From contig JADFWS010000003.1 of the NCBI GenBank assembly GCA_015234065.1, positions 1 to 38,054 on the forward strand: a stretch of 38,054 nt of DNA, in the 5' to 3' direction. The translations under genes and the position numbers were made by a program. Origin of the DNA: Candidatus Omnitrophota bacterium (lineage in GTDB: Bacteria > Omnitrophota > Gorgyraeia > Zapsychrales > Fredricksoniimonadaceae). The notes below the pieces were generated by a model. The model was not told where the DNA came from and ran no database searches. It worked only from the letters and a program-made list of their open reading frames with translations. Of this stretch, positions 2,201 to 30,323 are shown piece after piece. Each line of letters begins with the position of its first letter. The stretch's first letter is position 1.

Positions 2201-4021
2201 TTACTGAGAATTACAAATTATAAAGATATACGCTGTTGAGATCACCAACAAAATAAGCGAGATCGGCAAACCGCGCCGGTTATAGCTCGCAAATGTCAGG
2301 CCTTCTTTGGAACGGCCGTCGAGTTTCGCCACATGTAACTCTTCGGTCAGCTGATGCGTGATCACACCGCCGCTCGCCGGCGTTAAACAGGTGCAGCTCC
2401 CCACCATGACGCCCAACGACAACGCCCACCACACGACATCCGTAAAGTCCGCAAACCCTGAATGCATGACCACCGGAATAAAGAACGCGGCCGCCGCGCC
2501 CGGATTCAAAAGGATCGTAAACGCCGCCACAAACCACAGCAAAAAGATCGGATATAATACCTTATTTCCCGCAGAAATGGACATAAGAATATCAGAAATA
2601 TTATTGAGCAGGCCCGAGTACACCGCACCGCCAACAATGATGAAAATAGCGATATAATAAATAGCGTCGATCAGGCGGACCTTGCGGATCACATGACGCG
2701 CCTTATGATGTTCAATGGCCAAAAGAAGGAACGCCCCACCGAGCGCGATCGGCGCCAGCTGGATCCGAAACACCGGCAGGACAAAAAACGCGGCAATAAC
2801 AGCGCCCAGCACATACAGCACCATCTTGACCGCAGGCCAGTCCATGTGCATGCCTTCCAGCTCATGCTCCACGCCCAGCAACAATACTTTTTCCTGCTTC
2901 ACAGACCGCAGGATCTTATGCTGCCTGAACTCTGTAAACCACATGTATGCCAATGATGCCAGAAAACACACGATCGTGATCGGCAATAAATAGATCAAGA
3001 AATCCAGAAATGTGATCCCGGTCACAGATGCAACCTGCATATTGGCAAAGCCGCCGATGGCCGTGGCAGTCGATCCGATATTCGCCGCAATGATCTCAAA
3101 GATCACGACCGGCACCGGATCAAACATCAGTGTTCTCGCCGCGTAGATCGTGATCGGAATCATGACCAATAAAAGGATCATCACGCGCAAGGACCCGGCG
3201 AACATGGAAAACAGGAATGTCATGACGCATAGCCCCATGAGGATCCTGACCTTATCCGCCTTAAAGAACACGATCATGCGCTTGGTCGCATACTGAAAGA
3301 ACCGCAGGTCTTCCAGAAACACGGCAAAAACGCCCATACCTAAAAAGATAAAGATCGGGCTCATCTTGATCGCATCAAACGCTTCGGACTGCTTGTAAAA
3401 ACCAAAAAGAGAGCCAGCCACAAGCATGACCACCGCACCGAGGATCGCGCACACGGTCCGGTCAAAAAGATTCAGGGATATCATGGCAAACGTTACCAGA
3501 ATAATAACAAGCGCGATCGCAATATTCCGGCCTTCAGGCGCGAAAATATCCAAACCCGTGGCTGCCGGGATCTTATTATTGATCGTAAGCATTTTGCCAT
3601 TACGCGACACAACGAACTGCACCGTATCGCCAGGCTTGCTGCTCGACATCAGAAATGCCAGATGATGCGCGGACTGCACATCCACATTGTTATATTTCAG
3701 GATAACATCCCCGCGGGTCAGGTCGAACAGGCGGCGCGCCGCACCTTTGGGCTCGCTGTTAATAAGAACACCCGCCGCATACGGAAGGTTGAAATCTTTC
3801 GCAATGATCGGATTTACCGTAATGACATCAAACTCAATGGCATTGCTGCCGCTCGTCTGCGCCAGGCGAGGCGCGCTCTGCGGCGCCATGTGCCGAGTAT
3901 CGATGAACATGGCCCCCAGGACAACGACCACGACCAGCGCTATCGCCGCCTCCACATAAGGAAAGCTCCGCAGACGCTCTAATTTGTCCGCGTTCATGAT
4001 CCCTCGTATGCTCAACGCCAT
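2201..4021 (-). CDS. mamN: PDZ-MamN fusion: Na+/H+ antiporter/ArsB-like permease with N-terminal PDZ domain
   Basis: A 606-residue protein. Residues about 20-42 form a membrane anchor, 60-155 a PDZ domain (DLTRGDVILKYNNVDV marks the groove region), and about 165-606 a multi-spanning permease of the ion-transporter superfamily (ArsB/NhaD). Key segments include ANIGSTATAIGGFANMQVAS and LNPGAAAAFFIPVVMHSG, the two re-entrant regions of this fold. MamN in Magnetospirillum belongs to this superfamily and is proposed to export protons released by magnetite formation. The attached PDZ domain is not part of the classical MamN as I know it. AGGAG six bases before the ATG at 4021 supports this start over the inner ATG at 3997. 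Confidence 0.85.
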   Translation of the reverse strand: MALSIRGIMNADKLERLRSFPYVEAAIALVVVVVLGAMFIDTRHMAPQSAPRLAQTSGSNAIEFDVITVNPIIAKDFNLPYAAGVLINSEPKGAARRLFDLTRGDVILKYNNVDVQSAHHLAFLMSSSKPGDTVQFVVSRNGKMLTINNKIPAATGLDIFAPEGRNIAIALVIILVTFAMISLNLFDRTVCAILGAVVMLVAGSLFGFYKQSEAFDAIKMSPIFIFLGMGVFAVFLEDLRFFQYATKRMIVFFKADKVRILMGLCVMTFLFSMFAGSLRVMILLLVMIPITIYAARTLMFDPVPVVIFEIIAANIGSTATAIGGFANMQVASVTGITFLDFLIYLLPITIVCFLASLAYMWFTEFRQHKILRSVKQEKVLLLGVEHELEGMHMDWPAVKMVLYVLGAVIAAFFVLPVFRIQLAPIALGGAFLLLAIEHHKARHVIRKVRLIDAIYYIAIFIIVGGAVYSGLLNNISDILMSISAGNKVLYPIFLLWFVAAFTILLNPGAAAAFFIPVVMHSGFADFTDVVWWALSLGVMVGSCTCLTPASGGVITHQLTEELHVAKLDGRSKEGLTFASYNRRGLPISLILLVISTAYIFIICNSQ

Positions 4022-4768: not shown

Positions 4769-5509
4769 TTAGTCTTTCTTCCTCTTCTCCAAATCCATAG
4801 CCTTCTTAAAACAAACGATCGCGTCCTTATGATCACCGGAATTCTCGTACAGGAACCCGAGCGCGTGATAATACACCGACTCACGCGGATTAATATCGAT
4901 CGCCTTCTTATACATGGCCTTGGCATCTTCGACCTTGTCGGTCTTCTCGTAACAGGTGCCGAGATTATAATAATTATCTGCGACATCCGGCGTCATCTCG
5001 ATCAACTTTGTCAAATACGGCGTCGCATCCGCATACTGCTCCAGGTCAAGCAGGCAACCGGTCAGCGCGTGCATGATATCCGCATCCTCTGGCTTTATTT
5101 CCTCGGCCTTCTTGAAATACTCCACCGCCTCTTTAAACTCTTCCAGCTTTTCATGGCACTGCGCCATCAAAAACAACAACTCGGCATCATCCCCATGCCC
5201 CTTTGATATATAAGACTCAAAGAACTCAAGCGACTTGGTCCAATCACCTTTTTCAAAGAACTTGATGCCCTGCTCTTTATCGAAATCCTTGGTGATCTCC
5301 TCCGTATCTGCCACAAACAGCTTTTCATACGCATTGCCTAAACCCGCGACGATCTTGCCGCAGACATTCAGCGTTTTGTATGCCGCATAATTCAATTTCT
5401 TGCTGATCCCCAGGCTGCTTTCATCTTTTCTGGGGCGAGCCGCCTTCACCGGCGTTTCTGCCTCAACCTGCGGCGCTTCATGCTTTTTATGTCTTTTTAA
5501 CTCTTCCAT
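4769..5509 (-). CDS. mamA: MamA, TPR scaffold protein
   Basis: Tetratricopeptide-repeat protein of 246 residues. The reading frame stays open to 5584, but the ATG at 5509 has a perfect AGGAGG five bases upstream, so I place the start there. A Lys/Glu-rich N terminus (about 1-50) precedes four to five TPR units, visible as repeated FxxGDWxxSLEFF, LEEFKEAVEYFKKAEEIKPED, DNYYNLGTCYEKTDKVEDA and ALGFLYENSGDHKDAIVCF segments. MamA forms a cytosolic protein layer on magnetosomes and is involved in their activation. No signal peptide is present, which agrees. The start codon lies inside the end of mamB (about 23-base overlap), implying coupled translation. Confidence 0.92.
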   Translation of the reverse strand: MEELKRHKKHEAPQVEAETPVKAARPRKDESSLGISKKLNYAAYKTLNVCGKIVAGLGNAYEKLFVADTEEITKDFDKEQGIKFFEKGDWTKSLEFFESYISKGHGDDAELLFLMAQCHEKLEEFKEAVEYFKKAEEIKPEDADIMHALTGCLLDLEQYADATPYLTKLIEMTPDVADNYYNLGTCYEKTDKVEDAKAMYKKAIDINPRESVYYHALGFLYENSGDHKDAIVCFKKAMDLEKRKKD

Positions 5510-6467
5510 GCCGTCCTCCTGTGAATATAGATAATAAATTCGCCAAAGGATGTGCCGCTTCCTCGGGGCTGTCTGACACAACATGCTTCTCGTTCGGCGT
5601 CTCTTTACACGTAAAGGCGATATTCACTTCCTTGATCTGCGCGAAGCGGCGCATCAGCGCTGCGCGAGCTTCACGGGCGATCATGTGGCCTTCGGTAACT
5701 GTCTTTTTCGGATCAATAAATATCTCCATATCGATCCACGCTTCATGCCCGACCCGACGGGCATTGATATAATTGACACCTTTGACTTCGCGGTACTGAA
5801 GCACGGTCTTTTCGATCAGGCCACGCTTCTCCATAGGCAGCGATTCATCGATCAAGCTCTTGAAGGCCTCGATCCCGAGTTCGATCGCTGTCTTCGCAAT
5901 GATCAACCCGACGAGAACTGCCGCCAGCGAATCCAGGATCGGAAAACCGACATTCGCCATTACGATCCCGAACAAGACCGCGATCGACGAAATAAGGTCA
6001 GCCCGGTTCTCATTGGCATTCGCGATCATGGCCGGAGAATTAAGTTTTCTACCTGCGCAAAACCCGTAACCGGACAAAATATAGTTGGCAATGATCGAGA
6101 CCAGCGCACCAAAGAACGCAATAATATGCGGCGGATGGATCTGGCCGCTTAAAATAACCTCAACAGCGTCATACAAAATCAAAAGCGCAATACCCAGAAG
6201 GACCATGTACACAAGCGCCGCGCCTAAAAACTCAGCCTTGCCGTATCCCCAGGGATGCGTTTTATCTTCCTTCTTCCCGGAGATCGCGAGCGTCACAATA
6301 ACCATGAGCGTCGCGATCACGTCGGTGCCGGAATGGATCCCGTCCGCAATAAGCCCCTTGGACCCGGAAACATACCCGATATAAATTTTAAACAACGTCA
6401 ACGTCGAGTTTCCCAGGAAACATATCCAGGGAACGATCCGCCCGCATCTGACACATTTATCTTCCAT
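5487..6467 (-). CDS. mamB: MamB, cation diffusion facilitator (iron transporter)
   Basis: CDF-family transporter of 326 residues with six membrane helices and a cytosolic C-terminal domain. An N-terminal CVRCG pair resembles the CxxC of known MamB. The membrane metal site is intact: H and D in ADGIHSGTDV (helix 2) and E and D in NENRADLISS (helix 5). The helix-2 pattern matches Magnetospirillum MamB, with E replacing one helix-5 D. The C-terminal domain carries the usual EVKGV and RRVGHEAWIDMEIFIDP strands. The ATG at 6467 is preferred over an upstream extension because the extra 15 residues are encoded by a dispersed repeat; AGGATGA from that repeat may act as the ribosome-binding site. Confidence 0.93.
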   Translation of the reverse strand: MEDKCVRCGRIVPWICFLGNSTLTLFKIYIGYVSGSKGLIADGIHSGTDVIATLMVIVTLAISGKKEDKTHPWGYGKAEFLGAALVYMVLLGIALLILYDAVEVILSGQIHPPHIIAFFGALVSIIANYILSGYGFCAGRKLNSPAMIANANENRADLISSIAVLFGIVMANVGFPILDSLAAVLVGLIIAKTAIELGIEAFKSLIDESLPMEKRGLIEKTVLQYREVKGVNYINARRVGHEAWIDMEIFIDPKKTVTEGHMIAREARAALMRRFAQIKEVNIAFTCKETPNEKHVVSDSPEEAAHPLANLLSIFTGGRHGRVKKT

Positions 6468-6470
6468 TAT

Positions 6471-6514
6471 CGTCATCCTGAGTCTCGCCGAAGGCGGACG
6501 AAGGATCCCCAACG
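6471..6514 (+). repeat. Dispersed palindrome-forming repeat, copy 1
   Basis: Begins CGTCATCCTGAG and ends CGAAGGATCC, with an imperfect inverted core (CGCCGAAGGCGG). It matches, as a reverse complement, copies at 6556-6586 and 35513-35548. Such repeats are common intergenic REP-like elements in many bacterial genomes. This copy abuts the mamB start codon and supplies its only Shine-Dalgarno-like bases. Confidence 0.75.
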
Positions 6515-6555
6515 TTTTTAGTTTCCAAGAATATTATGCCAACCAAACAATGCCG

Positions 6556-6586
6556 GAGATTCTTCGGCTTCGCCTCAGAATGACGT
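6556..6586 (-). repeat. Dispersed palindrome-forming repeat, copy 2 (inverted)
   Basis: Reads AGATTCTTCGGCTTCGCCTC followed by AGAATGACG on the plus strand, the reverse complement of the copy at 6471-6514. The two copies face each other across about 40 bases between mamM and mamB, so the mRNA there could form a long hairpin. Confidence 0.75.
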
Positions 6587-6592
6587 ACTCTT

Positions 6593-7486
6593 TCAAACTT
6601 CAGCTGGCACGACCTGGATCATAATATTGCCGATATTCTTATCTTCACTGCGCAAATATGTTTTGATCGCCTGATTGATCCGTTTGGCTTCAAGCACTGT
6701 CAAATCCGCGTCCAACTGCATCAGGACATCCAGAACGATCTTGCGGCCTGTCTGACGTGCCCGGATATCTTCGATCTTGCGCACGCCCTTCACTTCAAGG
6801 ATATGTGCGCGGATCTTTTCTATATACTGCTCAGGCAGGCTCGTATCCATGATGCCCTTAACGCCGTCCATCAGGATAATGTAACTGCCATGAATAACAT
6901 GCACCGACTCAAAAATAGCGATCGCCGGATCCACCCAATGCATGCCCTTTTGCGCCACAATAACGCCGATCGCAACGAGCAACGATGAAATAACGTCAAT
7001 CTTATTATGTTCCGCATGCGCCTTGAGCACCGGGCTGTTCAGCTGTTTGGCCCCGCAATGCGAATATTTATACAACAAGCCGTTCACGATCGCGCTCAGG
7101 ATGGCCGTAAAGAATACGACCATATGCGGCACCACGATCACGCGCTTCGCGATCACGAATGTGGAACTTAAAATGATCGCCGCAGTACCCAAGATCATGA
7201 ACAAACTCATCACAGACTGGACGATGAATTCGATCTTGCCGTACCCGTACGGATAGCGCATGTTCGCCGGCCGCTTGGAATACCGCACCCCGATGATCGC
7301 CGCGATCGACGTGACAATATCGCTCAGGTTGCACATACCGCTGCCGATCAAGGCACGGCTGCGTCCGAGGAACCCTACAAAGAGCTTGAAGATCGCCAGG
7401 AAGAAATTCGCCAGCAGGCCGACAACGATCGTCCTGTTGGCACAGCCCTCACACTTCACCATGTCTTTATCAGCAGCAGGGCTCAT
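6593..7486 (-). CDS. mamM: MamM-like cation diffusion facilitator
   Basis: A second CDF transporter, 297 residues, six helices plus C-terminal domain. N-terminal CEGCAN corresponds to the CxxC of MamM/MamB. The helix-6 stretch WVDPAIAIFESV closely resembles the WIDPAVALWETI of Magnetospirillum MamM, which is why I call it MamM-like. The metal site differs: in helix 2 the MamM Tyr/Asp pair is Cys/Asp (MCNLSD), while helix 5 keeps His and Asp (AEHNKIDVISS). Classical MamM partners with and stabilises MamB, and the two genes are adjacent here. The start overlaps the mamL stop as ATGA; an inner ATG at 7462 is possible. Confidence 0.85.
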   Translation of the reverse strand: MSPAADKDMVKCEGCANRTIVVGLLANFFLAIFKLFVGFLGRSRALIGSGMCNLSDIVTSIAAIIGVRYSKRPANMRYPYGYGKIEFIVQSVMSLFMILGTAAIILSSTFVIAKRVIVVPHMVVFFTAILSAIVNGLLYKYSHCGAKQLNSPVLKAHAEHNKIDVISSLLVAIGVIVAQKGMHWVDPAIAIFESVHVIHGSYIILMDGVKGIMDTSLPEQYIEKIRAHILEVKGVRKIEDIRARQTGRKIVLDVLMQLDADLTVLEAKRINQAIKTYLRSEDKNIGNIMIQVVPAEV

Positions 7487-9530: not shown

Positions 9531-11018
9531 TTATCTGACCGCCTGGCCAAATGCCACGCGTGCTGTGTTCGCCTGCTGACCATTATCCATCATCTGATTA
9601 TTCTGAGCCGCCATCGGTGCGTTCATAACCTGATGACAATTCGTACACACACCCCTGTAGACATGCGGCATATTGGCATTGCTTGGAATTGGCGGAGCCA
9701 CAACAGCCGCGACCTGCTGGGCCGCGACCGGAAACGCATTCGCCTGCGTATTAACAGGCATAGCTACCGGAATACCGCCCTGACTGATCATCTGTTTACA
9801 ATTCGGGCATCTCGGATACCCATCATTCGGATCCAACCGGGCATAAAATCTCCAGTTGCACGTCGGACAAACAAACGCTTTCACCGGTGCCTGGCCTTGA
9901 TCAAAATTCGGCTGAACCGGCATCATCTGATTCATTTGCGGCTGCTGGAACTGCACCATGTTCGTCACCGGCTGTTCGATCACCGGGGCCGGCACATTGT
10001 TATTATTGGCCATTTCAAGAGCCATTTCTGCATCACAATTCGGGCATTTCGGAAATTTGTTCGCCTGCCGAACCGCTTTCATACGCCAATTGCAAACCGG
10101 GCAAATAAACCCCTGGGTCTGCTGTTGCTGCGCCGGCTGCACCTGCTGTGGCTGTACCTGCTGCGGTCCAAAACCAAACGCCACTTGCTGCCCTATGCCA
10201 TTCTGATTTCCCGGCAATGGGCACAACGGGCCGCCGTTCCAAGCCACGGGCATATTACCCTGATTAGCCGCTTGCTGCATCATCATACCATTGCCCTGCA
10301 TGCCCCCCTGTTGCATCATGGCCGGTTGCATCATCACACCCTGCTGCATCATGGCCGGGCGCATCATCATGCCGCCGCCTTGTCCCATCGGCATCGGGCA
10401 GTTCGGGCCCATGCCATTACCAAAAGCCACGGGAGCAGGCATCGCCTGACCCATATTCTGGTCTGGCATCTGTCCGGGCATGCCCGGCTGTGGCAGCGTA
10501 TTACTTGCTTGCGGTGTCGCCTGAATTCTGGCCTTGCGATACAACGTCACAACTTTCCTGGCCTGGCCCGTATAACCGCCAAATGCCCTAATACCAAACT
10601 GCATTAAAATGTTATAACTGTCCGGGTCAATGTTGCCAACAATGACCGCTTCTTCACCCTTACCCGCGATCAAATACACCAATTGCGGATTCGGCTGCGT
10701 GCCAAGATACGGATTCTTGATAGACTCAAGCATTTTCTTCGACAACGGATCAACAACCAGGAAATATTTAGCTTCGGGTAACGTAGCCGCCACATTCGCG
10801 TTCAAATTGGACCCGGTCGCGGCAATCACGATCTTCCCGCACGCCGGATTCCCGACATTCTGCGTCTGGCCTTCCGGTGAAAACAGCGCAAAGATCCCGA
10901 CCGCGAGCACCAGCAAAATCGCGCCAAAAATAAAATACGTGTTCAGGTCTGTTTCTTCGAGCCGCGATGAGAGATCGTCGATCGAAACATTCATTTTTTC
11001 TTTCGGATGCTTTACCAT
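9531..11018 (-). CDS. Lumenal multidomain protein: NifX-like domain, Met-rich segment, two Cys ribbons, one magnetochrome
   Basis: A 495-residue protein. One membrane anchor (28-46) is followed by a domain (60-160) whose KIVIAATG start, VVDP core and FGIRAF end resemble the NifX/NafY FeMo-cofactor-binding fold. Residues 180-250 are extremely rich in Met and Gln (for example MMMRPAMMQQGVMMQPAMMQ). Two four-Cys ribbons follow (C306, C309, C325, C328 and C384, C387, C404, C407), both with the CNWR motif, resembling rubredoxin or zinc knuckles. One magnetochrome, MPHVYRGVCTNCH, ends at 462. The VAF motif appears at 197-199, 277-281 and 488-490. Because heme is attached outside the cytosol and there is only one anchor, all domains should be lumenal. 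Probably an iron or redox protein of the magnetosome. Confidence 0.8.
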   Translation of the reverse strand: MVKHPKEKMNVSIDDLSSRLEETDLNTYFIFGAILLVLAVGIFALFSPEGQTQNVGNPACGKIVIAATGSNLNANVAATLPEAKYFLVVDPLSKKMLESIKNPYLGTQPNPQLVYLIAGKGEEAVIVGNIDPDSYNILMQFGIRAFGGYTGQARKVVTLYRKARIQATPQASNTLPQPGMPGQMPDQNMGQAMPAPVAFGNGMGPNCPMPMGQGGGMMMRPAMMQQGVMMQPAMMQQGGMQGNGMMMQQAANQGNMPVAWNGGPLCPLPGNQNGIGQQVAFGFGPQQVQPQQVQPAQQQQTQGFICPVCNWRMKAVRQANKFPKCPNCDAEMALEMANNNNVPAPVIEQPVTNMVQFQQPQMNQMMPVQPNFDQGQAPVKAFVCPTCNWRFYARLDPNDGYPRCPNCKQMISQGGIPVAMPVNTQANAFPVAAQQVAAVVAPPIPSNANMPHVYRGVCTNCHQVMNAPMAAQNNQMMDNGQQANTARVAFGQAVR

Positions 11019-17048: not shown

Positions 17049-17951
17049 TTACGCAGGGTCAATAAAGAAATCAATGTCACTTATTAACGGGAGATCCCGA
17101 AAAAGCGCCTGCTTCATGGCATCTGTAAACACGGCAGTATCTGCAATCGTTCCTTTGGAAGAACCGCGCAGGCTAATACCAACCCAGAATTTTTTCCCAA
17201 CCCTTTTAAATTTAATATGTTCCGGCCAGAAATCCGGGCGAATACGCGTAATAACATTACGGATATGCAGAATAAAGCCCGCATCCGGGGCCTGGTCCAG
17301 AATATTCTGTACGCTCATGACCCAATGCTTTAACGCGTCTTTAATGATCGCAACCCCGACGACAAGCGCCGCCAGCCTGTCGCATACGGCAAAATCCGGG
17401 CCAAACTGGGACAAAATAATGCCGCCAATGACCGCACTCGAAGAAATAACATCTGCCCCGGCATGTGCCCCGTTCGCGATCAGCGCCGGACTCTCCAATC
17501 TGCGACCGGCACAAAAATTATAGCGCTGCATCATATATGTCAGAAAAACAGATGTCATGGCCACCGGCAATACCATGATATCTGGCTGAACAAAATCACG
17601 CCGAAGAATAGCCAGAAGGCTGGACAGGGAAATAAATGCCCCCACTCCGATAAGAACGCTAAACGCAATAAGCGTCACCAGAAATTCAAGCCGGGCATAT
17701 CCATACGGGAACCGTGCATCCTGCGGACGGTTAGAGAATGAAAGCGTCACCATGATGGCAATGCTTGTTACCACACACACAATGGACTGAATGCCATCCG
17801 CCAGCATACCGGAACTGTTCGCAAGAACACCCCCCGCAAGCTTGATCACGACGAGAATGGCATTTCCTACAACAGTCCATGCCAGAACCTTTTTAGAACA
17901 CGCCACGCAAGCTTCTGCACTGGGACATGATTGAGCACGTGCTTTTGTCAT
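17049..17951 (-). CDS. CDF-family transporter with altered metal site
   Basis: A 300-residue CDF protein with six helices, a short C-terminal domain and an N-terminal Cys cluster (CPSAEACVAC). Helix 2 reads LADGIQSIVCV, so the metal-binding H/D-x-x-x-D pattern is Q and C; helix 5 keeps H and D in GAHAGADVISS. The NRPQDARFPYGYARLEF loop and the CAGRRLESPALIANG region place it with MamB/MamM proteins. Loss of the helix-2 Asp implies changed specificity or loss of transport. The start overlaps the upstream CDF gene as ATGA, so the two may act as a heterodimer. Confidence 0.88.
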   Translation of the reverse strand: MTKARAQSCPSAEACVACSKKVLAWTVVGNAILVVIKLAGGVLANSSGMLADGIQSIVCVVTSIAIMVTLSFSNRPQDARFPYGYARLEFLVTLIAFSVLIGVGAFISLSSLLAILRRDFVQPDIMVLPVAMTSVFLTYMMQRYNFCAGRRLESPALIANGAHAGADVISSSAVIGGIILSQFGPDFAVCDRLAALVVGVAIIKDALKHWVMSVQNILDQAPDAGFILHIRNVITRIRPDFWPEHIKFKRVGKKFWVGISLRGSSKGTIADTAVFTDAMKQALFRDLPLISDIDFFIDPA

Positions 17952-18844
17952 TGTTCGACCATGGGTTTCATCCCCACAAAAATCTCATGGGGTTTTAAAA
18001 ACTTTATTCTTAACGCTTCTTTGATCCTTGCAATAATCTTCTTGGCTTCTGATACCGGCATATCCTTGATCACCGTCAGAATGAGCACAATCTCATACAC
18101 ATGCCCCACTTTGTTCACGCGCAACGCTTCAAGTTCTGCGCCCCGTCCTGCCTGACGCACATGCCGTTCAACAGTACTGATGATCTCCTTATCGCACGAT
18201 GCATCCATAAGCCCGTTAAATGCTCTGTATAGAAACCACACACTGTACGCCACAATAAACACTGCCGCAAAGATCGCGCATGCATAATCAAGGATATACG
18301 CCCCCATCCTTGCCACCACCACCACGACCGCGGTCACGACTGAGAGGATAAAATTTGTTTCAAGGATGAACATGATGTCATGCGCATCTGTCTCACGAAC
18401 AGCAGCAACCTTATTACCAACGATCCCCATAAAAACAAGACTGACGACTGCCGTGCCAAGCGCGATCCATGCCCCCAGAAGTTCCGGCGGATACAGCGTA
18501 TGGAAAAAAACCATGTGACCGGTTGAAAAGATCATCTCCCCTGTAGCCAGCGCAATGATTGCCGATACGCCAAAGAGAACCATGTATTCAAGCTTTCCCT
18601 GGGTAAAAAGCATTTCCCGGCGCCCTGGCCGCACCGACGGATGCGCAACCGCGATCCGCATCAATGTCGCCACTGCGATCAAAATACCGAACAGGGCAAA
18701 AATACCGGCGACGAGCAGGCTTTTCGATGCACTCATAACGCCAAAAACAGTTTTAACAATAAAATCCAACATAAAGAAATAAAGAAGCGCGTACGCAAAA
18801 CGCTCTTTGTTTTCTTTAGCAATATCCAACTTGAATTTCTTCAT
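17948..18844 (-). CDS. Degenerate CDF-like protein without metal site
   Basis: A 298-residue protein from the ATG at 18844, two bases after the stop of the previous gene. It has the CDF layout: six helices, a GKLEYMVLFG segment after helix 2 (PYGYGKIEF in true members), and a C-terminal domain with LRVNKVGHVYEIVLILTVIKD. The expected helix-2 site reads VAGIFALFGI and the helix-5 site ILETNFILS, with no Asp or His pairs. It is probably a non-transporting partner, comparable in principle to pseudo-enzymes, for the next gene product. The N-terminal Cys pair is also missing. Confidence 0.78.
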   Translation of the reverse strand: MKKFKLDIAKENKERFAYALLYFFMLDFIVKTVFGVMSASKSLLVAGIFALFGILIAVATLMRIAVAHPSVRPGRREMLFTQGKLEYMVLFGVSAIIALATGEMIFSTGHMVFFHTLYPPELLGAWIALGTAVVSLVFMGIVGNKVAAVRETDAHDIMFILETNFILSVVTAVVVVVARMGAYILDYACAIFAAVFIVAYSVWFLYRAFNGLMDASCDKEIISTVERHVRQAGRGAELEALRVNKVGHVYEIVLILTVIKDMPVSEAKKIIARIKEALRIKFLKPHEIFVGMKPMVEQ

Positions 18845-18846
18845 TC

Positions 18847-19671
18847 TTACTTTGCCCCTGTTGTAAGCCCCTGGATCAAATGGCAATTAGAACAGACACC
18901 CCGATAGTTATGCGGCATCTGCGCCGTGATCGGAATAGCGATATCAGGATTAACAACATGACAGCGCTCACATACACCCCGATACTCATGCGGCATGACC
19001 GCATCACGAAATATCATCGGCGCGCCATTGGCTTGCCCTGCCATCGGCTGCGTAAAAGCCACGTTTTGAATGCCCGCTCCCTGCGCCTGACTGTTCATGG
19101 TAATATTCGCACCGCAACGAGGGCAGCGTGAAAATCCGTTTGCACCGGCATTTTGATCAATATAGGAATGATTACAGCGCGGACAGCGAATCCCACTATA
19201 AACCGGCCGCTGAAACGCGACCTGTTGTACGCCAACCGCACAACCGGGCCTGAACGCTACTTGTTGAGCCCCATTAATACCTTGAGGAAAGCATTGGGCA
19301 ACGCTTGGACATGTCGCGCAATTCGGATTTGTTAAAGCCACCTGCTGGGCTGATCCTGCGGCCCCTGGGAAACAATTCGTTACCGTCGGGCACGTAGCGC
19401 AGCCTGGTGGCACATAAGCTGCCTGCAAAGCTCCGCCCAGAACAACAGTTTCCTGCCCGGGCTGAAATGCCACCTGCTGGGCCCCCTGAACCATAACGCC
19501 ATGAACTTGATCCGGCATCGGAATCGGCTTCTTTGCACTACTAAAAACTGCAACGCAAAAGAACGTGGCCAGCCCAAGAATGATAGTTCCAATGATCCAT
19601 AAACTCTTGGAGCTCAAGTTCACACACGACCCGTATTCCCACGCCTCATTTTTCTTTTTTTCACTGCTCAT
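18847..19671 (-). CDS. Membrane-anchored protein with Cys repeats, one ribbon and two magnetochromes
   Basis: A 274-residue protein. Anchor helix 24-44; then a repeat region with CATCPTVTNCFP (91-102) and CATCPSVAQCFP (118-129); a four-Cys ribbon (C163, C166, C183, C186); and two magnetochromes, PHEYRGVCERCH (ends 238) and PHNYRGVCSNCH (ends 264). The motif QQVAF occurs at 65-69, 136-140 and 149-153, with variants QQVAL (109-113) and NVAF (203-206). Heme sites and a single anchor place everything after the helix in the lumen or periplasm. It looks like an electron carrier with extra metal sites. AGGGC precedes the ATG. Confidence 0.83.
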   Translation of the reverse strand: MSSEKKKNEAWEYGSCVNLSSKSLWIIGTIILGLATFFCVAVFSSAKKPIPMPDQVHGVMVQGAQQVAFQPGQETVVLGGALQAAYVPPGCATCPTVTNCFPGAAGSAQQVALTNPNCATCPSVAQCFPQGINGAQQVAFRPGCAVGVQQVAFQRPVYSGIRCPRCNHSYIDQNAGANGFSRCPRCGANITMNSQAQGAGIQNVAFTQPMAGQANGAPMIFRDAVMPHEYRGVCERCHVVNPDIAIPITAQMPHNYRGVCSNCHLIQGLTTGAK

Positions 19672-21125: not shown

Positions 21126-21482
21126 TTACTGCGTTTCTATCCAGGTCATTGGCCTCCCACAATGCGGGCACAACGGAAATCCACCTTTGCCGCACGCAGG
21201 ACAAACAAAAATTCCTCTGTATCCGTTCCAAAACATCGCGACTTTACATGTCGGGCATAACGGGATCCCCTTGGTGCCGCATATAGGACACACGCTATAG
21301 ACATTATGCGCAATAACTTTCATGACCACATTGCCTGCAATAAGTGAACGCACCTGAAGGGTTTTATATTTCCCGACAGAATACGCACCGTACCCGGCCA
21401 CGAACACCATGAAGATCACGCCCATAATCAACAGCCTGATCCGGTCCTGTTCGTGAATGTTCGTTTGGTCGTTAATACTCAC
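21126..21482 (-). CDS. Membrane-anchored double Cys-ribbon protein
   Basis: A 118-residue protein starting with GTG at 21482, whose GTGA overlaps the upstream stop. One membrane helix (about 17-37), then two tandem ribbons: CPICGTKGIPLCPTC and CPACGKGGFPLCPHC. The two units are near copies, spaced by a hydrophobic strand (MFWNGYRGIF). The single helix may place the ribbons outside the cytosol, as for the magnetochrome proteins nearby. Zinc or iron could be bound; iron-binding rubredoxin-like knuckles cannot be excluded. Confidence 0.8.
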   Translation of the reverse strand: MSINDQTNIHEQDRIRLLIMGVIFMVFVAGYGAYSVGKYKTLQVRSLIAGNVVMKVIAHNVYSVCPICGTKGIPLCPTCKVAMFWNGYRGIFVCPACGKGGFPLCPHCGRPMTWIETQ

Positions 21483-22183
21483 AGCACCTTTACCTTTGGT
21501 TTCACGCCGCCCGCCGGAGCCGGCGCTGTCACCGCCGTTACTTCATGCATGGCCCCGCCGCATTTGGGGCATTTGTCCGGGATCACCTTGCCGGCGCTCT
21601 TTTCCGAAATGCGATACTGGCAATCGAAACAAATATAATATTTGCCCTGAACGACCCGTCCGAGGTTGGCCTGCGTATCAAAAGAATTGCAGGCCACGGC
21701 CTTTTTGCTTCCCGTAATACCAAAATGCGCCGGAACATTCTCCGCGGTCAGTTTGGTCAGCGCATCCGGATAATCCTGAAGCGCCTGCCAGGCCGTCCCG
21801 TGAATGTCCGTATACACATCAATACGTGCCTGATCAAAAATACGGAAAGGCTCAAAGCCGACATTGTTCCCCAAGACCACATCCACGCCAAGATCAACCA
21901 ACATTTGCGCCGAGCGCAATCCCGCGGCATGCTGAGCATCCATATATTTATTTGGAACAGCTTTCCATGTTCTTCTGGCACGGTCGCAAATGATATAGTA
22001 CGGCGCGCGCCCAAAAAGATAGGAAACAGGGCTCGTAATATCTTGCCCAGTCGCGGCAATAGCCACCAGAACAGCCTTTCTTCCGCTTAAAACAAGCGGA
22101 TTATCCATTTCATACCATGCACGGCCGGCTACAAGGCCAAGTGCGCACAAAAGAACCAGTAGAAAGGCTGATCTCTTCTTCAT
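21479..22183 (-). CDS. Exported NifX-like domain protein with C-terminal Cys ribbon
   Basis: A 234-residue protein. N-terminal signal or anchor helix (4-22), NifX/NafY-like domain (about 36-150: VLVAIAATG start, SPVSYLFGRAPYYIICD core, DLGVDVVLGNNVG and YTDIHGTAWQAL end), then a four-Cys ribbon (C185, C188, C205, C208). The core FGRAPYY is shared exactly with the C-terminal domain of the CDF fusion at 26226-27380. NifX-type domains bind Fe-S or FeMo-cofactor precursors in nitrogenase assembly; no nitrogenase gene is near, so an iron or cluster carrier for the magnetosome is suggested. The start overlaps the HTH stop as ATGA. Confidence 0.82.
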   Translation of the reverse strand: MKKRSAFLLVLLCALGLVAGRAWYEMDNPLVLSGRKAVLVAIAATGQDITSPVSYLFGRAPYYIICDRARRTWKAVPNKYMDAQHAAGLRSAQMLVDLGVDVVLGNNVGFEPFRIFDQARIDVYTDIHGTAWQALQDYPDALTKLTAENVPAHFGITGSKKAVACNSFDTQANLGRVVQGKYYICFDCQYRISEKSAGKVIPDKCPKCGGAMHEVTAVTAPAPAGGVKPKVKVL

Positions 22184-22795: not shown

Positions 22796-23170
22796 TCAAA
22801 TATTTTTATTTGCCTGCCGCTCACATATTCCATCAACATGCGTTGCGACCATCTCAACACATCCGACGCAAGGCAGTTTCTTCAACGCGCGGATCTCCCG
22901 GCATTGGATGGATCCGGCACGGGCCAACAGCGCCGCCGCGCAATCCTTCGCCGCCTGCGAATGATTCTTTTCCAATATCACCTGGGCCGCATACAAAGAA
23001 CCGCATACGCCACCTGGAGCCCGCCCGCCTCCACACGCAACAAAGCGCGACAGGTCTTCCGCAGACAATTTGAATTTATCCTGGAAAGCATACGCGATCG
23101 CCTCTGCGCAGTTAGACTTTTTAAACCCTGAAGTTCCTGAATAGTGTGCTTTTGCTTTTTCAACTGACAT
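22796..23170 (-). CDS. C_GCAxxG_C_C family putative redox protein
   Basis: A 124-residue protein of the C_GCAxxG_C_C family. The signatures are NCAEAIAYAF, the family core VACGGGRAPGGVCGSLYAA and the late Cys residues CREI and CVGCVEM. A functional role is not established; redox activity is inferred from the conserved Cys. GGAGG six bases before the ATG supports the start. It follows arsC by 138 bases and may be the last gene of the arsenic operon. Confidence 0.85.
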   Translation of the reverse strand: MSVEKAKAHYSGTSGFKKSNCAEAIAYAFQDKFKLSAEDLSRFVACGGGRAPGGVCGSLYAAQVILEKNHSQAAKDCAAALLARAGSIQCREIRALKKLPCVGCVEMVATHVDGICERQANKNI

Positions 23171-23308
23171 TTAAAACCTCCGCTATATTGATATTCCTTT
23201 TCCTGAAAATCTCAGGCAGTTGATCCACAGCGCTTTGCCGCGAATCAGTACCGCCGCATCTTCCTGATGCATTTGGCGATTGTATCCATCTACGACCAAA
23301 GAAATAAC
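23171..23308 (-). other. Intergenic region with possible very short ORF
   Basis: The minus strand has one open frame: an ATG near 23270 would encode about 29 residues rich in basic and hydrophobic amino acids and ending in a TAG just before the C_GCAxxG ribosome-binding site. No ribosome-binding site or recognisable family supports it. It may be a gene remnant or simply leader sequence. Confidence 0.25.
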
Positions 23309-23737
23309 CTAAAATTGTTTTAGCCAACCTTCGATCTTTTGCCTGATCTCCTCACGAACAGCCCTGGTCTTGGCAAGCTTCTCTTCAAAAGCCCCCTCGA
23401 ACTTCGACGGGTCTGTGAAGCCCCAATGAAGCCTCTTGGCCACGCCCGGAAATACCGGACAGCGCTCAGCACTTGTTTCATCGCACACCGTGACTACATA
23501 GTTATACAACTTGCGCTGTTTCAAAAGATCAAAAACCGCCTGCGTTTTCTTCCCGGTAATATCAACCCCGATCTCCTTCAAGGCCTCAATAACAACTGGA
23601 TTCAACTTGCCCGGCTCGATCCCGGCACTTTCTACCTCAAACCTATCCCCGCCCAGCTTGCGCAAAATCTCTTCTGCCATCTGGCTTCTTGCTGAATTGT
23701 GAATACACACAAACAACACCTTTACCTTGCCCATCAC
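23309..23737 (-). CDS. arsC: Arsenate reductase, thioredoxin-coupled LMW-PTP type
   Basis: A 142-residue ArsC of the low-molecular-weight phosphatase fold. The P-loop is CIHNSARSQ near residue 11, and the redox Cys pair lies in TVCDETSAERCPVF, as in the Staphylococcus aureus pI258 enzyme, which passes electrons from thioredoxin. It reduces arsenate to arsenite for export by the ACR3 gene product upstream. It lies six bases after the ArsP-type permease gene. Confidence 0.93.
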   Translation of the reverse strand: MMGKVKVLFVCIHNSARSQMAEEILRKLGGDRFEVESAGIEPGKLNPVVIEALKEIGVDITGKKTQAVFDLLKQRKLYNYVVTVCDETSAERCPVFPGVAKRLHWGFTDPSKFEGAFEEKLAKTRAVREEIRQKIEGWLKQF

Positions 23738-23743
23738 AACCCC

Positions 23744-24712
23744 CTAGCTAGTTAGAACAATTTGAAGAAAATTAAACGCATATCCAATAGCGATAATTCC
23801 CGCCGTTACGACCCCGAAATAAATAAGGATCAAATGGAGATTCATTGCCCGTCTCAGCATGATAGCCTCGGGCAAACTTAACCCGGTGACCGCCATCATA
23901 AAAGCCAAGGCAGTCCCCAGCGGTATCCCTTTTTGAAATAAAACCAATGCAACGGGCACGATTGCGGCACAACTACCATACATCGGAACACCTAAAAGAG
24001 TCGCTATTGGCACCGAAAAGATCCCCGTGCCGGAAATCAGCGCATGGATCTGTTCTTGAGGGAGATAATTGTGTATGAAAGACCCTAAAGCAACGCCCAC
24101 CAAAATCCATAACCAGATCTTCTGAACGATCGAGGACGCCTCATTCAGACCAAAAACAATTCTATCTTTGAAGGACGAGATCTGTGGTTCATTGGAGGAA
24201 AGCTCTTCGTTTCCACTGGCAACCATATCAACAACAAGATGCCGCTCCAGCTTCATCCTCCCAATAACAAGCCCTGACACAATGGCTAACAGCAATCCGC
24301 TCAATACATACAGAACAGTTATTTTCCAGCCGAACAGCCCTATCATGATGATAACCAGGTATTCGTTGATCAGAGGAGATGCCACTAGAAAAGTAAGCGC
24401 CGCGCTCAACGATATGCCCGCCTTAAGAAAACTTAAAAACATCGGGATCGATGAACAGGAACAGAACGGCGTGATAGCACCGAACAAAGCCGCGTAGACA
24501 TTTCCCATCAGCCCGTTATTAGCCATCCACTTCTTGACCGACCGCTGCGGAATAAATGTCCTTAATACTCCGATAACCAGGATCATCACATAGAGCAAGA
24601 ATAATATCTTTATTGAATCGTAAATAAAGAAATCCAATGCTGCTGCCAGCGTCGATGATCTTGGCAGATCCAAGACTTGATAAACAAACCAATCAGAGAA
24701 ATTTAACAGCAC
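23744..24712 (-). CDS. ArsP-type permease (organoarsenical/DUF318 family)
   Basis: A 322-residue membrane protein with about eight helices in two related halves. The first half has [22 protein letters not shown], with the CSC motif of ArsP/SO_0444-like permeases. The second half has the matching [28 protein letters not shown]. Members export trivalent organoarsenicals or other oxyanions. The start overlaps the ACR3 stop by ten bases. Location in an ars operon supports the arsenical role; the substrate is not provable here. Confidence 0.85.
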
Positions 24713-25761
24713 TTGCCCTCCTTCTTAATGTCGACCAACCAAACGCTGCTTTTCAAATACAACGCCACATTGACCAACCCGATCATGACCGGCACCTCGA
24801 CCAAAGGCCCGATGACCGCGGCGAAAGCCACGCCAGAATTGATACCAAAGACAGCAATCGCAACGGCAATAGCCAACTCAAAATTGTTGCTTGCCGCCGT
24901 GAACGAAAGCGTCACGGTCTTGCCATGATCAGCCCCCGCCTTCCCGCTCATGAAGAAGGAGAGAAAAAACATGACCACAAAATAAATCAGGAGCGGAATC
25001 GCGATCCGAAGAACATCCCACGGGATCTTTACGATGTACTCCCCCTTAAGCGAGAACATCACAAAGATCGTGAACAGAAGGGCGATCAGCGTCATGGGGC
25101 TGATGCGAGGAATGAACACCTTCTCATACCATTCCTTGCCCCTCAGCCGAAGCAGGGCAAACCTGGAGATCATTCCAGCCAAGAACGGAATACCCAGATA
25201 AATGAATACACTTTTGGCGATCTGCATGATCGTGACATTAACAATCACGCCTTTAAGACCAAACCAGCCAGGAAGGATCGTAATAAAGACCCACGCGTAC
25301 ACCGAGAAGAACAGCACCTGAAAAATGGCGTTAAACGCCACCAACCCGGCGCAATACTCGGTATCCCCATCAGCCAGGTCGTTCCAGACAATGACCATGG
25401 CAATGCACCGCGCCAAGCCGATCATGATAAGACCGACCATGTATTCCGGATAGCCTCGCAAAAAGACGATCGCCAGGGCAAACATCAATATTGGGCCAAT
25501 AATCCAGTTCTGAACCAGCGACAGCGCCAGGATCTTGTAATCCTTAAACACATCCCCCAATTCCTCATACTTCACCTTCGCCAAAGGTGGATACATCATG
25601 AGGATCAATCCAATAGCGATCGGTACATTGGTTGTCCCTGATTGAAACTGATTCCAGAATCCCATAACTCCCGGAATAAAGTACCCGACGCCAACGCCAA
25701 GCGCCATCGCCAGGAATATCCATGCCGTCAAATACTGATCCAGGAATGCCAGCTTCTTCAT
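24703..25761 (-). CDS. acr3: ACR3-family arsenite efflux permease
   Basis: A 352-residue ten-helix permease of the BASS superfamily. The essential Cys of ACR3 lies in [14 protein letters not shown] and the conserved Glu in [14 protein letters not shown]. It exports As(III) by proton antiport in the cytoplasmic membrane. The C terminus ends KCC. The start overlaps the regulator stop as ATGA. Confidence 0.93.
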
Positions 25762-26066
25762 CCCTTCTCCTCGGGCGTCTTAATACTGCAACATCCACCT
25801 TCAATCTTGATAGCCTTGATGTTAACCAGCCCGTCAGCCACTTTCTTATGGGCAGAAGATAATATCCTGGTAAATGTCGGGCGCGACACCTTCATCAGTT
25901 TCCCCGCCTGCGCGTGGGTCAAATCTTCAAGATCCGCCAACCGAATGGCCTCGAACTCATCAATGGTCACGGCCACGCCCTCCAGCACGCCCGGTTTCTT
26001 ACACTTGGGACGAAAGCATCTCTCCCCCGGCAGGCACTTGATCCATCTGGTCTTTTTTGGTCTCAT
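25758..26066 (-). CDS. DUF134/UPF0251 HTH protein, likely ars operon regulator
   Basis: A 102-residue protein of the DUF134 family: [20 protein letters not shown] start, Cys-rich N terminus, and a sigma-70 region-4-like HTH in [34 protein letters not shown]. The C terminus has GGCC, a possible metalloid-binding vicinal Cys pair. It is first in the arsenic operon and takes the position normally held by ArsR. A perfect palindrome overlaps the -10 box, so arsenite-responsive repression is likely but unproved. GAGG precedes the ATG. Confidence 0.85.
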
Positions 26067-26122: not shown

Positions 26123-26225
26123 CTGCTTTCGTAAACCCTAAATCGTACATGCTAATTGTTTGGTAATTCGAAAGATGCAATTCTCTCTGACTGCTACAAG
26201 ATTCAGAATTGTATTGGGATGCTGC

Positions 26226-27380
26226 TTACCACGGAGTGATCCATCGGCCCTGATTACGGCCAAAGCCGGTATACACATGCGCAATGAGCGCCATTCTAAG
26301 ATGCCCGTCCTGAAAAGCGGCGAACGTCTGCTCGACCGTGGCGGGACGATCAATATAGTAAACTCGAACGCCCACAGACCTGAGCGCCGCATACATCTCG
26401 GGATCCATCTGTGCCGCCAGGACTGTGCCGACATTATTCTGACGCACCAGCGCGGTCAGCATCTGGATCGTGTTCCCGTTAAAGAACTGGCTGTTATTCA
26501 TAAACACAACCGTCTTGTTCTGTGTCATATCCGCGACAAAATAATACGGGGCCCGGCCGAACATATTCTCAACCGGGCTCTGGGCGAACTGCCCCTGCGC
26601 CGGAATCAGGACGACCTTTCTCTTATTCAGCGTATCGTGGGCATCATGGGCGAACAAAAGGACGATCAACACGGTCAACACATACAAAGCCGTCGCAACC
26701 CGCCGCTTGATCGCCACTTCATTCGGGATCTGCTCCGCAAAAGCTTCCTTAAACAGTACAAACGCGCCCCGGAATTGGAAACAGGCGATCAAAACAGCAC
26801 CCAGAGGATCGCAATATACCAATCCCGCTTCGGCGAGCGTCAGCCCAACCAGCGCCACGATCGTCGAATAGAAATTCGCCTTGTTCTGCACCATGCAGAT
26901 ATAAATACTGCTGTTGTCCGGCTTTTGCTTGAGCGCACTGACAGAAACCCGATACAAATGTGTCGTGGCTAAAAAAGAAACGAGCGCAACAAAAAGCGAC
27001 AGGATCCCAGGATGCCCCGGCAAATGCACAAAAAGGATCGCCACATTATCCGAAAGGATCCAAACGCCCGACAGGAACATCACGATCCCGATCAGAATCC
27101 CCTGCCAGAACGGCGAAAGCCTGAGGCGGCGGACACCCTGATAATTGATCCCGAACGCAACACAATCCGCGAACGAATTCACAGCATCAGCAACGAGGAT
27201 CTTACTTCCGGTCAAAAGCCCGACAAAACCTTTGACGATCGTCGCGATAATATAATAAATGAGCGAGCCGAACACAACGCGCGAATGGCAATTGCGGCAC
27301 TTGGGATTGATCTTGCCCTTGAACAGAAGTTGATTACAGGTACAGGCTTTATCTTTAGGATGGTGTTCCGCGAGCGGCAT
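26226..27380 (-). CDS. CDF transporter domain fused through an extra helix to a NifX-like domain
   Basis: A 384-residue fusion. Residues 13-31 hold two Cys pairs (CTC and CRNCH); 35-210 form six CDF helices; 218-234 is a seventh helix; 244-350 is a NifX-like domain (KVVLIPAQGQ start, SPVENMFGRAPYYFVADM core, VGVRVYYI end). The normal cytosolic CDF C-terminal domain is missing. The metal site is changed: N and D in VNSFAD (helix 2), Q and N in MVQNKANF (helix 5). Seven helices put the NifX-like domain on the opposite side from a normal CDF tail, outside the cytosol. Its core FGRAPYY equals that of the 21479-22183 protein. It lies beyond the ars operon yet clearly belongs to the magnetosome set. 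Confidence 0.83.
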   Translation of the reverse strand: MPLAEHHPKDKACTCNQLLFKGKINPKCRNCHSRVVFGSLIYYIIATIVKGFVGLLTGSKILVADAVNSFADCVAFGINYQGVRRLRLSPFWQGILIGIVMFLSGVWILSDNVAILFVHLPGHPGILSLFVALVSFLATTHLYRVSVSALKQKPDNSSIYICMVQNKANFYSTIVALVGLTLAEAGLVYCDPLGAVLIACFQFRGAFVLFKEAFAEQIPNEVAIKRRVATALYVLTVLIVLLFAHDAHDTLNKRKVVLIPAQGQFAQSPVENMFGRAPYYFVADMTQNKTVVFMNNSQFFNGNTIQMLTALVRQNNVGTVLAAQMDPEMYAALRSVGVRVYYIDRPATVEQTFAAFQDGHLRMALIAHVYTGFGRNQGRWITPW

Positions 27381-27496
27381 TCAAATCTTTCTGATCAAAG
27401 AATGTTAACGAATAATGTGCGGTGAATTTTATGCGCAAGCCGCCCGAATGTCAATTATTTTAAACGGCCCATTATCCTTAACAGCCATGCTCTCCT

Positions 27497-28720: not shown

Positions 28721-28756
28721 ATTATAACATTATATCCAAAAAAGTTATGTTATAAT
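28721..28756. promoter_or_regulatory. Symmetric divergent promoter pair
   Basis: ATTATAACAT (28721-28730) and ATGTTATAAT (28747-28756) are perfect 10-base inverted repeats 16 bases apart. Each arm contains an extended -10 box, TGTTATAAT, one per strand. The minus box serves the DegT gene (ATG six bases on) and the plus box the FemAB-SMR gene (ATG ten bases on). Both transcripts would start at or within a few bases of the start codon. Confidence 0.65.
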
Positions 28757-28766
28757 GCCATCCCTT

Positions 28767-30323
28767 ATGGCCGAAACGCATCATTTTTCAAGCATCGTAA
28801 CCCCTGATATCACCGCGATCCCCGAGCAGGATTGGCATGCTGTTTTTCCTTCTATCGCGGAAAGTTACGGATTCTTTAAAACACTCGACGAGACTCTAAC
28901 CGGACAATTCAAGCCATGGTATATCATGCTGTACGAAAACAGCATTCCTGTGTGCCTGGCCCCCTGCTTTATCATGGAATACCCGCTCGACACCACACTC
29001 GAAGGAAAGCCCAAAGAGCTCCTTTGCTGGATCCAGAAGAAACTGAACAAAAATTTTACACTAAAAATGCTTCTCTGCGGCTGTCAGGCGGCCGAAGGGC
29101 GGCTCGGGCTTTCTGATATGCGCCGGGCCGATATTGCCAGCGCCCTTCTTCATGAAATGGAAGCCCTCGCAAGAAAAGAAAAAGCCTCTCTTGTCGCGTT
29201 TAAAGACTTTCCTGATGACTATGGCCCGTTCTTTCAGACACTTTCCAAACGCGGCCTGCACAAGATGGAAAGCTACCCGTCGGTCGAACTGCACCTGCCG
29301 TTCACGTCGTTTGAAGAATACTTTGCTACTTTAAGCAAGGCCACGCGCAAGGACTTGCGCCGGAAATTTCAAAAAGTAGACGCATTGCCCAAGGTCAGCT
29401 TTGACGTCGCCCATTCTCTTAAAGGTGCGCTTCTCGATGAAGCATATCCTCTTTACCTGAACACCCTCGATAAAAGCGATGTTCAGTTCGAGCGCCTGAG
29501 CAAAGAATTCTTTCAATGCATCAGCGATAATCTACCGAAAGAAACTGTCTATTTCCTCTGGAAACTCGACGGGAAACTTGTCGCCTTTGATTTGTGCCTG
29601 ATACATAACGGCATTCTCGTCGATGAATATATCGGCATGGATTATTCCGTGGCTCTGCAATATCACCTGTACTATGTGACGTTCCGCGATATGGTGCGCT
29701 GGTGCATCGCGAACAATGTCCGCGTTTATGAGAGCGGCGCTTTAAACTATGACCCAAAAAGACGCCTGGACTTTCAATTCGTGCCGGAGAATATTTATCT
29801 CAAGCACTTAAACCCGTTCATTAATCCTTTATTCGCACCAGTGTGCCTTCTTCTCAAACCCGACAACTTTGACCCGATCCTCAAAGAGATCAAGCACGGG
29901 AAACCCGCGAAGAAATCCTCGAGCGGCCTTACCTTGAAGCTCCTGTTCCTTATTCTCATGACCGACATCCTTGAATCTGTAGGCGAAATATTTTTCAAGC
30001 AGGGCGTTACTGCGACGGGATTCAGCAATGTCACACTGCACAACGCGCTGGCTTTTCTTGTCAAATTAAGCGCGACCCCGGCGTTATGGTTCGGCGTCCT
30101 TACCTACATCCTCAATTTTGTCCTGTGGATGGCGGTTCTGTCGCGTGTCGATCTAAGCATCGCGTTTCCCATTGGAAACGCGACCTATATCATTATCCCG
30201 TTCTTATCCATGCTCATCCTGCATGAAAAAGTCTCTCTCCTGCGCTGGGCCGGCATCGCCTGCATTATTATCGGCGCGGCTTTGATCACCCGCTCTGCGC
30301 ATAGCAAGGATGTGGCCTCATGA
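28767..30323 (+). CDS. FemAB/GNAT-like acyltransferase fused to an SMR-type membrane domain
   Basis: A 518-residue fusion. Residues about 1-390 resemble the DUF482/FemAB peptidoglycan-biosynthesis acyltransferases: LSKATRKDLRRKFQKV, AYPLYLNTLDKSDVQFERL, DGKLVAFDLCLI and YESGALNYDPKRRL. Residues about 400-518 form a four-helix SMR/EamA-half domain (TDILESVGEIFFKQG with the helix-1 Glu, WMAVLSRVDLSIAFP, HEKVSLLRWAGIACIIIG). The following gene encodes a second SMR unit, so a heterodimeric flippase tied to an acyltransferase is plausible, like ArnE/ArnF beside ArnB. An ATG at 28755 is excluded because it overlaps the -10 box. Confidence 0.82.
   Translation: MAETHHFSSIVTPDITAIPEQDWHAVFPSIAESYGFFKTLDETLTGQFKPWYIMLYENSIPVCLAPCFIMEYPLDTTLEGKPKELLCWIQKKLNKNFTLKMLLCGCQAAEGRLGLSDMRRADIASALLHEMEALARKEKASLVAFKDFPDDYGPFFQTLSKRGLHKMESYPSVELHLPFTSFEEYFATLSKATRKDLRRKFQKVDALPKVSFDVAHSLKGALLDEAYPLYLNTLDKSDVQFERLSKEFFQCISDNLPKETVYFLWKLDGKLVAFDLCLIHNGILVDEYIGMDYSVALQYHLYYVTFRDMVRWCIANNVRVYESGALNYDPKRRLDFQFVPENIYLKHLNPFINPLFAPVCLLLKPDNFDPILKEIKHGKPAKKSSSGLTLKLLFLILMTDILESVGEIFFKQGVTATGFSNVTLHNALAFLVKLSATPALWFGVLTYILNFVLWMAVLSRVDLSIAFPIGNATYIIIPFLSMLILHEKVSLLRWAGIACIIIGAALITRSAHSKDVAS

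Follow-up and report, generated by a model that had tools for sequence, protein, structure and literature searches.

A CDF-type membrane domain joined through a seventh helix to a Nitro_FeMo-Co domain in an Omnitrophota magnetosome gene cluster

FmpB (DMR_41100) of Desulfovibrio magneticus RS-1 is a magnetosome protein with magnetochrome and NifX/NifB domains (PMC4287615) and is a precedent for lumenal NifX-like domains. In the same strain, a MamB C9Y mutant, altered in a cysteine that matches the CxxC motif discussed below, is non-magnetic (PMC4287615). Among soluble proteins, IssA binds Fe-S, builds thioferrate particles and carries a basic Trp/Gly/Arg tail of 70 residues, and the ORP/TM1290/MTH1175 branch has been tied to IssA (PMC5524996). 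MrpORP is a Mrp ATPase fused to a Di-Nase domain, and both of its domains bind Fe-S (PMC6345978).

The window analyzed here is a 38,054-base contig from an Omnitrophota bacterium. It contains a magnetosome gene cluster with homologues of MamA, MamB, the protease MamE, MamM, MamN and MamQ, magnetochrome proteins and two further CDFs, which bears out the magnetosome context first proposed for the fusion gene. The cluster contains five CDF-like genes (5487-7486, 17049-18886 and 26226-27380), where a MamB/MamM pair is usual. A MamB-type CDF with a C-terminal domain (CTD; 5487..6512, minus strand), a MamM-type CDF (6593..7486, minus strand) and a third CDF (CDF3; 17049..17951, minus strand) were identified by profile match and alignment. 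The MamN-type transporter at 2201-4021 has a PDZ-like stretch at its N-terminus. A single ORF at 28755-30323 combines a FemAB/GNAT-like domain with an EamA/ArnE-like membrane domain, and the gene after it is a second EamA-like one, of small size.

The CDF-NifX fusion is encoded by a whole CDS of 384 amino acids with an ATG start (26226..27380), recognized as an ORF and by its ortholog in genome G027. The coordinates of the sequence-only reading were correct; the strand, which it did not give, is minus, and all features of the fusion gene given below lie on this strand. A promoter-like site (TTGACA, 17, TAAAAT; 11/12, a consensus match only) is located 46 bases 5' of the start codon (27426..27454). 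Two plus-strand ORFs across the gene (26160-26972 and 27012-27425) are regarded as shadows, as both protein families are read from the minus frame. A chance ORF or an assembly join was rejected because another genus has an ortholog that carries this fusion and aligns without gaps.

The predicted protein matches Pfam PF01545 (Cation_efflux) at residues 39-215 (61.8 bits, cut-off 26.6; E 1e-16) and PF02579 (Nitro_FeMo-Co) at residues 267-357 (40.2 bits, cut-off 26.3; E 4e-10), the latter overlapping the stretch, residues 244-350, proposed for comparison with the NifX family. The six-helix Cation_efflux domain of the CDF family is present; no Pfam match to the CDF C-terminal (ZT_dimer) family was found, and that region is occupied by a seventh helix and PF02579. 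AlphaFold models of the fusion and its ortholog were each built from 41 aligned rows, after two earlier folding alignments (A2, A3) had been discarded for misplaced fragments. The fusion model (pLDDT 86) has helices at residues 29-57, 60-83, 90-118, 125-152, 157-184, 190-216 and 222-253, then an alpha/beta domain at 256-357 and a disordered tail; the model of the ortholog, also with a pLDDT of 86, shows the same seven helices, domain and tail. A Foldseek search with the fusion model matched ORP (TM-score 0.87 by target) and YiiP/FieF. Three modules are thus delimited: a CDF-type membrane domain with TM1-TM6 (residues 29-216, 26733..27296; Pfam, AlphaFold model and fold match to YiiP/FieF), a seventh membrane helix, TM7 (residues 222-253, 26622..26717; hydrophobicity and the models of both copies), and a Nitro_FeMo-Co (ORP/MTH1175-like) domain, predicted to be lumenal (residues 256-357, 26310..26615; Pfam, sequence and fold matches). 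This fusion architecture is solid. Lys/Arg residues number 7, 3, 3 and 3 in loops 0, 2, 4 and 6 and 1, 0 and 0 in loops 1, 3 and 5, and this odd/even bias indicates an N-in orientation for TM1-6, as in the usual CDF. Seven helices and a cytosolic N-terminus would therefore place the soluble domain on the lumenal (or periplasmic) side, a topology that is predicted with good confidence. The lumenal position argued in the sequence-only reading from a seventh helix agrees with the odd helix count in both models and is likewise a prediction. Neither an even number of helices nor a tail matching a normal CDF CTD, the two outcomes named beforehand as contrary, was obtained when both were looked for.

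We read the whole protein as a transport-dead CDF scaffold whose soluble domain, placed in the magnetosome lumen, would handle Fe or Fe-S, and give this function an even chance of being correct. Its relation to magnetosome CDFs is seen at the N-terminus. The motif C28-x-x-C31 of the fusion (27288..27299; alignment) recurs in its ortholog and in every aligned row of MamB, MamM or CDF3 type, whereas the ordinary CDF rows all lack it. The best NCBIfam model for the fusion is MamB (68.5 bits, with MamM at 37.2 bits), both scores lying under the cut-off, which is 350 bits for MamB; the MamB- and MamM-type CDFs of the window, at 255 and 251 bits, also fall under the 350-bit NCBIfam cut-off. The only CxxCH of the fusion (C28-H32) is on the cytosolic N-terminal side, so that the magnetochrome and NifX combination of FmpB is not found here. 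Heme binding at this CxxCH was rejected, as the ortholog has CxxCQ.

Site residues were aligned against ordinary and magnetosome CDFs and mapped to YiiP. The TM2 half of site A is N68 and D72 (27165..27179; alignment and YiiP mapping), where ordinary CDFs have H/D, and the TM5 half is Q165 and N169 (26874..26888; alignment), where most ordinary CDFs have H/D. Site A of the ordinary rows is H/D + H/D in nine of ten and H/D + E/D in the tenth; it is N/D + Q/N in the fusion and H/D + Q/N in the ortholog, in which His stands at the N68 position. The HxxxD-type site A in TM2 and TM5 that is characteristic of CDFs is therefore found in neither copy. Both altered pairs reported in the sequence-only reading were confirmed; N/D is limited to the window copy, and only the TM5 change, from HxxxD to QxxxN, is common to both. 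A second loss had been overlooked: the TM2-TM3 loop (27114..27131; alignment) is 12 residues shorter in both copies and lacks the site-B motif HPYGHGKxE. The transport site looks lost because of the TM5 QxxxN and the site-B loop deletion in both copies. With TM5 ligands, site-B loop and CTD gone from both, few of the known CDF metal sites remain, and the CDF part has probably lost metal transport, as judged from the alignments; weak transport may persist through D72 in the fusion and the TM2 H/D in the ortholog, the site-A residues that remain. An iron channel, as was also suggested, does not fit a CDF part with an antiporter-type fold.

A working transporter in which the site chemistry is unusual and the lumenal domain accepts metal on the exit side, drawing iron through, is rather unlikely. 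The CDF fold is intact in the model, D72 is kept, and other magnetosome CDFs of the cluster are also site-altered, such as MamM with C/D-H/D and CDF3 with Q/C-H/D; MamB has H/D-E/D. These points are set against the loss of both TM5 ligands and of the site-B loop in both copies, and against the absence of the regulatory CTD.

By both sequence and fold, ORP, TM1290 and MTH1175 are the closest to the soluble domain, whose fold matches NifX (9ian) and NafY (1p90) weakly (E about 0.1). The profile score above the cut-off and the shared fold place it in the Nitro_FeMo-Co superfamily (IPR003731); the closest structures and the nif gene context that would mark a NifX/NafY chaperone were not found, the window containing no nif genes. 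The earlier claim that the CDF CTD is replaced by an extra helix and a NifX/NafY-like domain thus holds for TM7 and for the superfamily, while the ORP/MTH1175/TM1290 (IssA) branch is closer than NifX/NafY proper. A NifB-like gene with a nitrogenase-cofactor-type neighbour is present on another contig of the same genome (L001, G000:C131), and from these two genes the source bacterium may fix nitrogen. No Cys is present in the soluble domain of the window copy and one is present in the ortholog, so that any cluster in the window copy would need ligands other than Cys. The disordered C-terminal tail TGFGRxQxRWxxPW (26229..26270; model and two-copy alignment) is the best-conserved segment, with 10/14 residues identical, a suggestive figure drawn from two sequences only. 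It is basic and aromatic with a pI near 12, is much shorter than the IssA tail, and was not seen at any other locus examined.

Two other proteins of the cluster contain a NifX-like domain. One (9531..11018, minus strand) has one TM, the NifX-like domain, Zn-ribbons and a CxxCH (magnetochrome-like) motif; proteins of this kind recur in the family, and several genomes carry them on the contig of the MamB/MamM pair. The other (21479..22183, minus strand) has one N-terminal TM, the NifX-like domain and a Zn-ribbon. Taken with the fusion, these proteins suggest that deep-branching magnetotactic bacteria use the NifX-like domain repeatedly inside magnetosomes.

In G027, genes for NapH-like, PDZ, magnetochrome, CDF4, CDF3 and PAS proteins are followed in one direction by the fusion gene, which has the CDF3 ortholog as a near neighbour. 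The window keeps the NapH-PDZ-magnetochrome-CDF4-CDF3 order at 20968-17049, and its fusion gene lies further upstream, past an arsenic operon. The arsenic block in this intervening stretch (22796-26066) encodes a C_GCAxxG-type protein, an arsenate reductase-like protein, an ArsP-type permease, Acr3 and a DUF134 protein. Membership of the fusion in this operon is not favoured: the fusion gene and the DUF134-acr3 run are each preceded by promoter-like sites, which are consensus matches only, and arsenic genes do not adjoin the ortholog.

The PAS gene of G027 (L045:4187-5143), which has a Cys-rich CW-type tail, overlaps the fusion start by four bases (ATGA). This overlap, together with pocket loops that differ from those of the soluble relatives, would suit a lumenal redox or sensing protein. 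In such a protein the iron or cluster status of the lumen would be read by the NifX-like domain and passed on through the CDF helices, either to the cytosolic side or to partner CDFs. No PAS gene adjoins the fusion gene in the window, and Pfam detects no signalling domain in the fusion itself; we consider such a sensor improbable.

TM7 also bears on a different arrangement, in which it does not cross the membrane and a cytosolic NifX-like domain substitutes for the CDF CTD in iron loading or dimerising. The charges at its flanks are balanced, with three K/R on each side, so that the orientation is not settled by them alone, and a lumenal domain follows from the helix count. Basic residues on both sides, the cytosolic location of free NifX-family proteins and that of normal CDF tails (PMC7170241) would be in keeping with a cytosolic domain. 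In both copies, however, TM7 is strongly hydrophobic and ranks with the most hydrophobic segments, and the models give it a length of about 32 residues; another NifX-like protein of the cluster, with its domain after a single TM and its CxxCH, points to the lumen. A cytosolic domain is accordingly doubtful, and we regard it as quite unlikely.

The search for the same fusion in other genomes, proposed with the sequence-only reading, returned one ortholog, in G027, which belongs to another Omnitrophota genus of the same family. The two copies share 44% amino acid identity over 377 residues in an ungapped BLAST alignment, with 49% in TM1-6, 27% in TM7, 43% in the domain and 71% in the last 14 residues. 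Besides these two genomes, no further fusions were found among the 384 phylum genomes sampled and 92 relatives. A scan of 84,980 species genomes by two short peptide patterns, which distant fusions could escape, retrieved only the known ortholog, and plasmid searches retrieved no fusion. No report of a CDF-NifX fusion was found in the literature covered. Other NifX-domain proteins of the family are separate, either soluble, single-TM, single-TM with Zn-ribbon, or NifX with magnetochrome, as judged by length and by the proteins actually read. In trees of the CDF and NifX parts, in which placement is weak and branches are long, the fusion's NifX part clusters with the two membrane-anchored types at moderate support (83/85), and TM7 aligns with the TM of one of these. 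A simple origin would be that a single-pass protein of this sort was joined to a truncated CDF. A decaying fusion without present function would suit the long branches in both trees and the occurrence in two genomes only, but is very unlikely given open frames of 384 and 385 amino acids, the gapless alignment, a pN/pS of 0.49 (an upper bound, as synonymous sites are near saturation) and a tail conserved above the rest of the protein.

For the transport-dead scaffold, the following course is proposed. The fusion would be a seven-helix protein of the magnetosome membrane, with the degenerate CDF TM1-6 serving as an anchor and partner surface, not as a pump; its partners would probably be the working CDFs MamB, MamM or CDF3. 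TM7 would carry the ORP/MTH1175-type domain to the lumenal side, where the domain and the basic aromatic tail may bind either iron or an anionic cluster (Fe-S or Fe) during iron delivery. The bound iron or cluster would then be held for, or handed to, the growing mineral or lumenal redox proteins. By analogy, IssA and MrpORP are Fe-S-binding precedents for such putative handling, and a receptor or chaperone role is a plausible candidate, with the iron binding of the domain putative. Tentatively, the protein could be a membrane-tethered nucleation or cluster-delivery device, in which a dead CDF among working iron CDFs places an IssA/ORP-like, putatively iron-binding domain with its basic aromatic tail at the exit on the lumenal side; iron, once imported, would be captured there as an Fe or Fe-S cluster and transferred to the mineral or to lumenal redox proteins. 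Against the scaffold reading stand the arsenic operon that separates the fusion gene from the core cluster in the window and the total of two examples. The step addressed by the fusion would be the holding of iron between magnetosome import and mineral growth. If the reading is true, a transporter-like domain and a lumenal iron- or cluster-binding domain in one protein would point to a physical connection of both steps, and the NifX/ORP superfamily, known for cytosolic cofactor chaperones, would reach into the lumen of an organelle.

Compared with known systems, the fusion shares with the magnetosome transporters MamB and MamM the six-helix CDF membrane domain, the N-terminal CxxC and the location in a magnetosome cluster, but it has no cytosolic CTD, its site A is altered, its site-B loop is deleted, and TM7 and a predicted lumenal domain are added. 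FmpB is likewise a magnetosome protein bearing a NifX/NifB domain; it lacks a CDF domain but contains a magnetochrome domain, and within the window the protein encoded at 9531-11018 is more nearly its analogue. The IssA/ORP/MTH1175 branch of IPR003731 has the same fold and, in IssA, a basic Trp/Gly/Arg tail, whereas these proteins are soluble and cytosolic and the tail of the fusion, at about 14-27 residues, falls short of the 70 in IssA. The nitrogenase cofactor chaperones NifX and NafY have the same superfamily fold, but their matches are weaker and no nif genes are near the fusion. In MrpORP, the same domain is also fused to another module, which is a cytosolic ATPase and not a membrane transporter.
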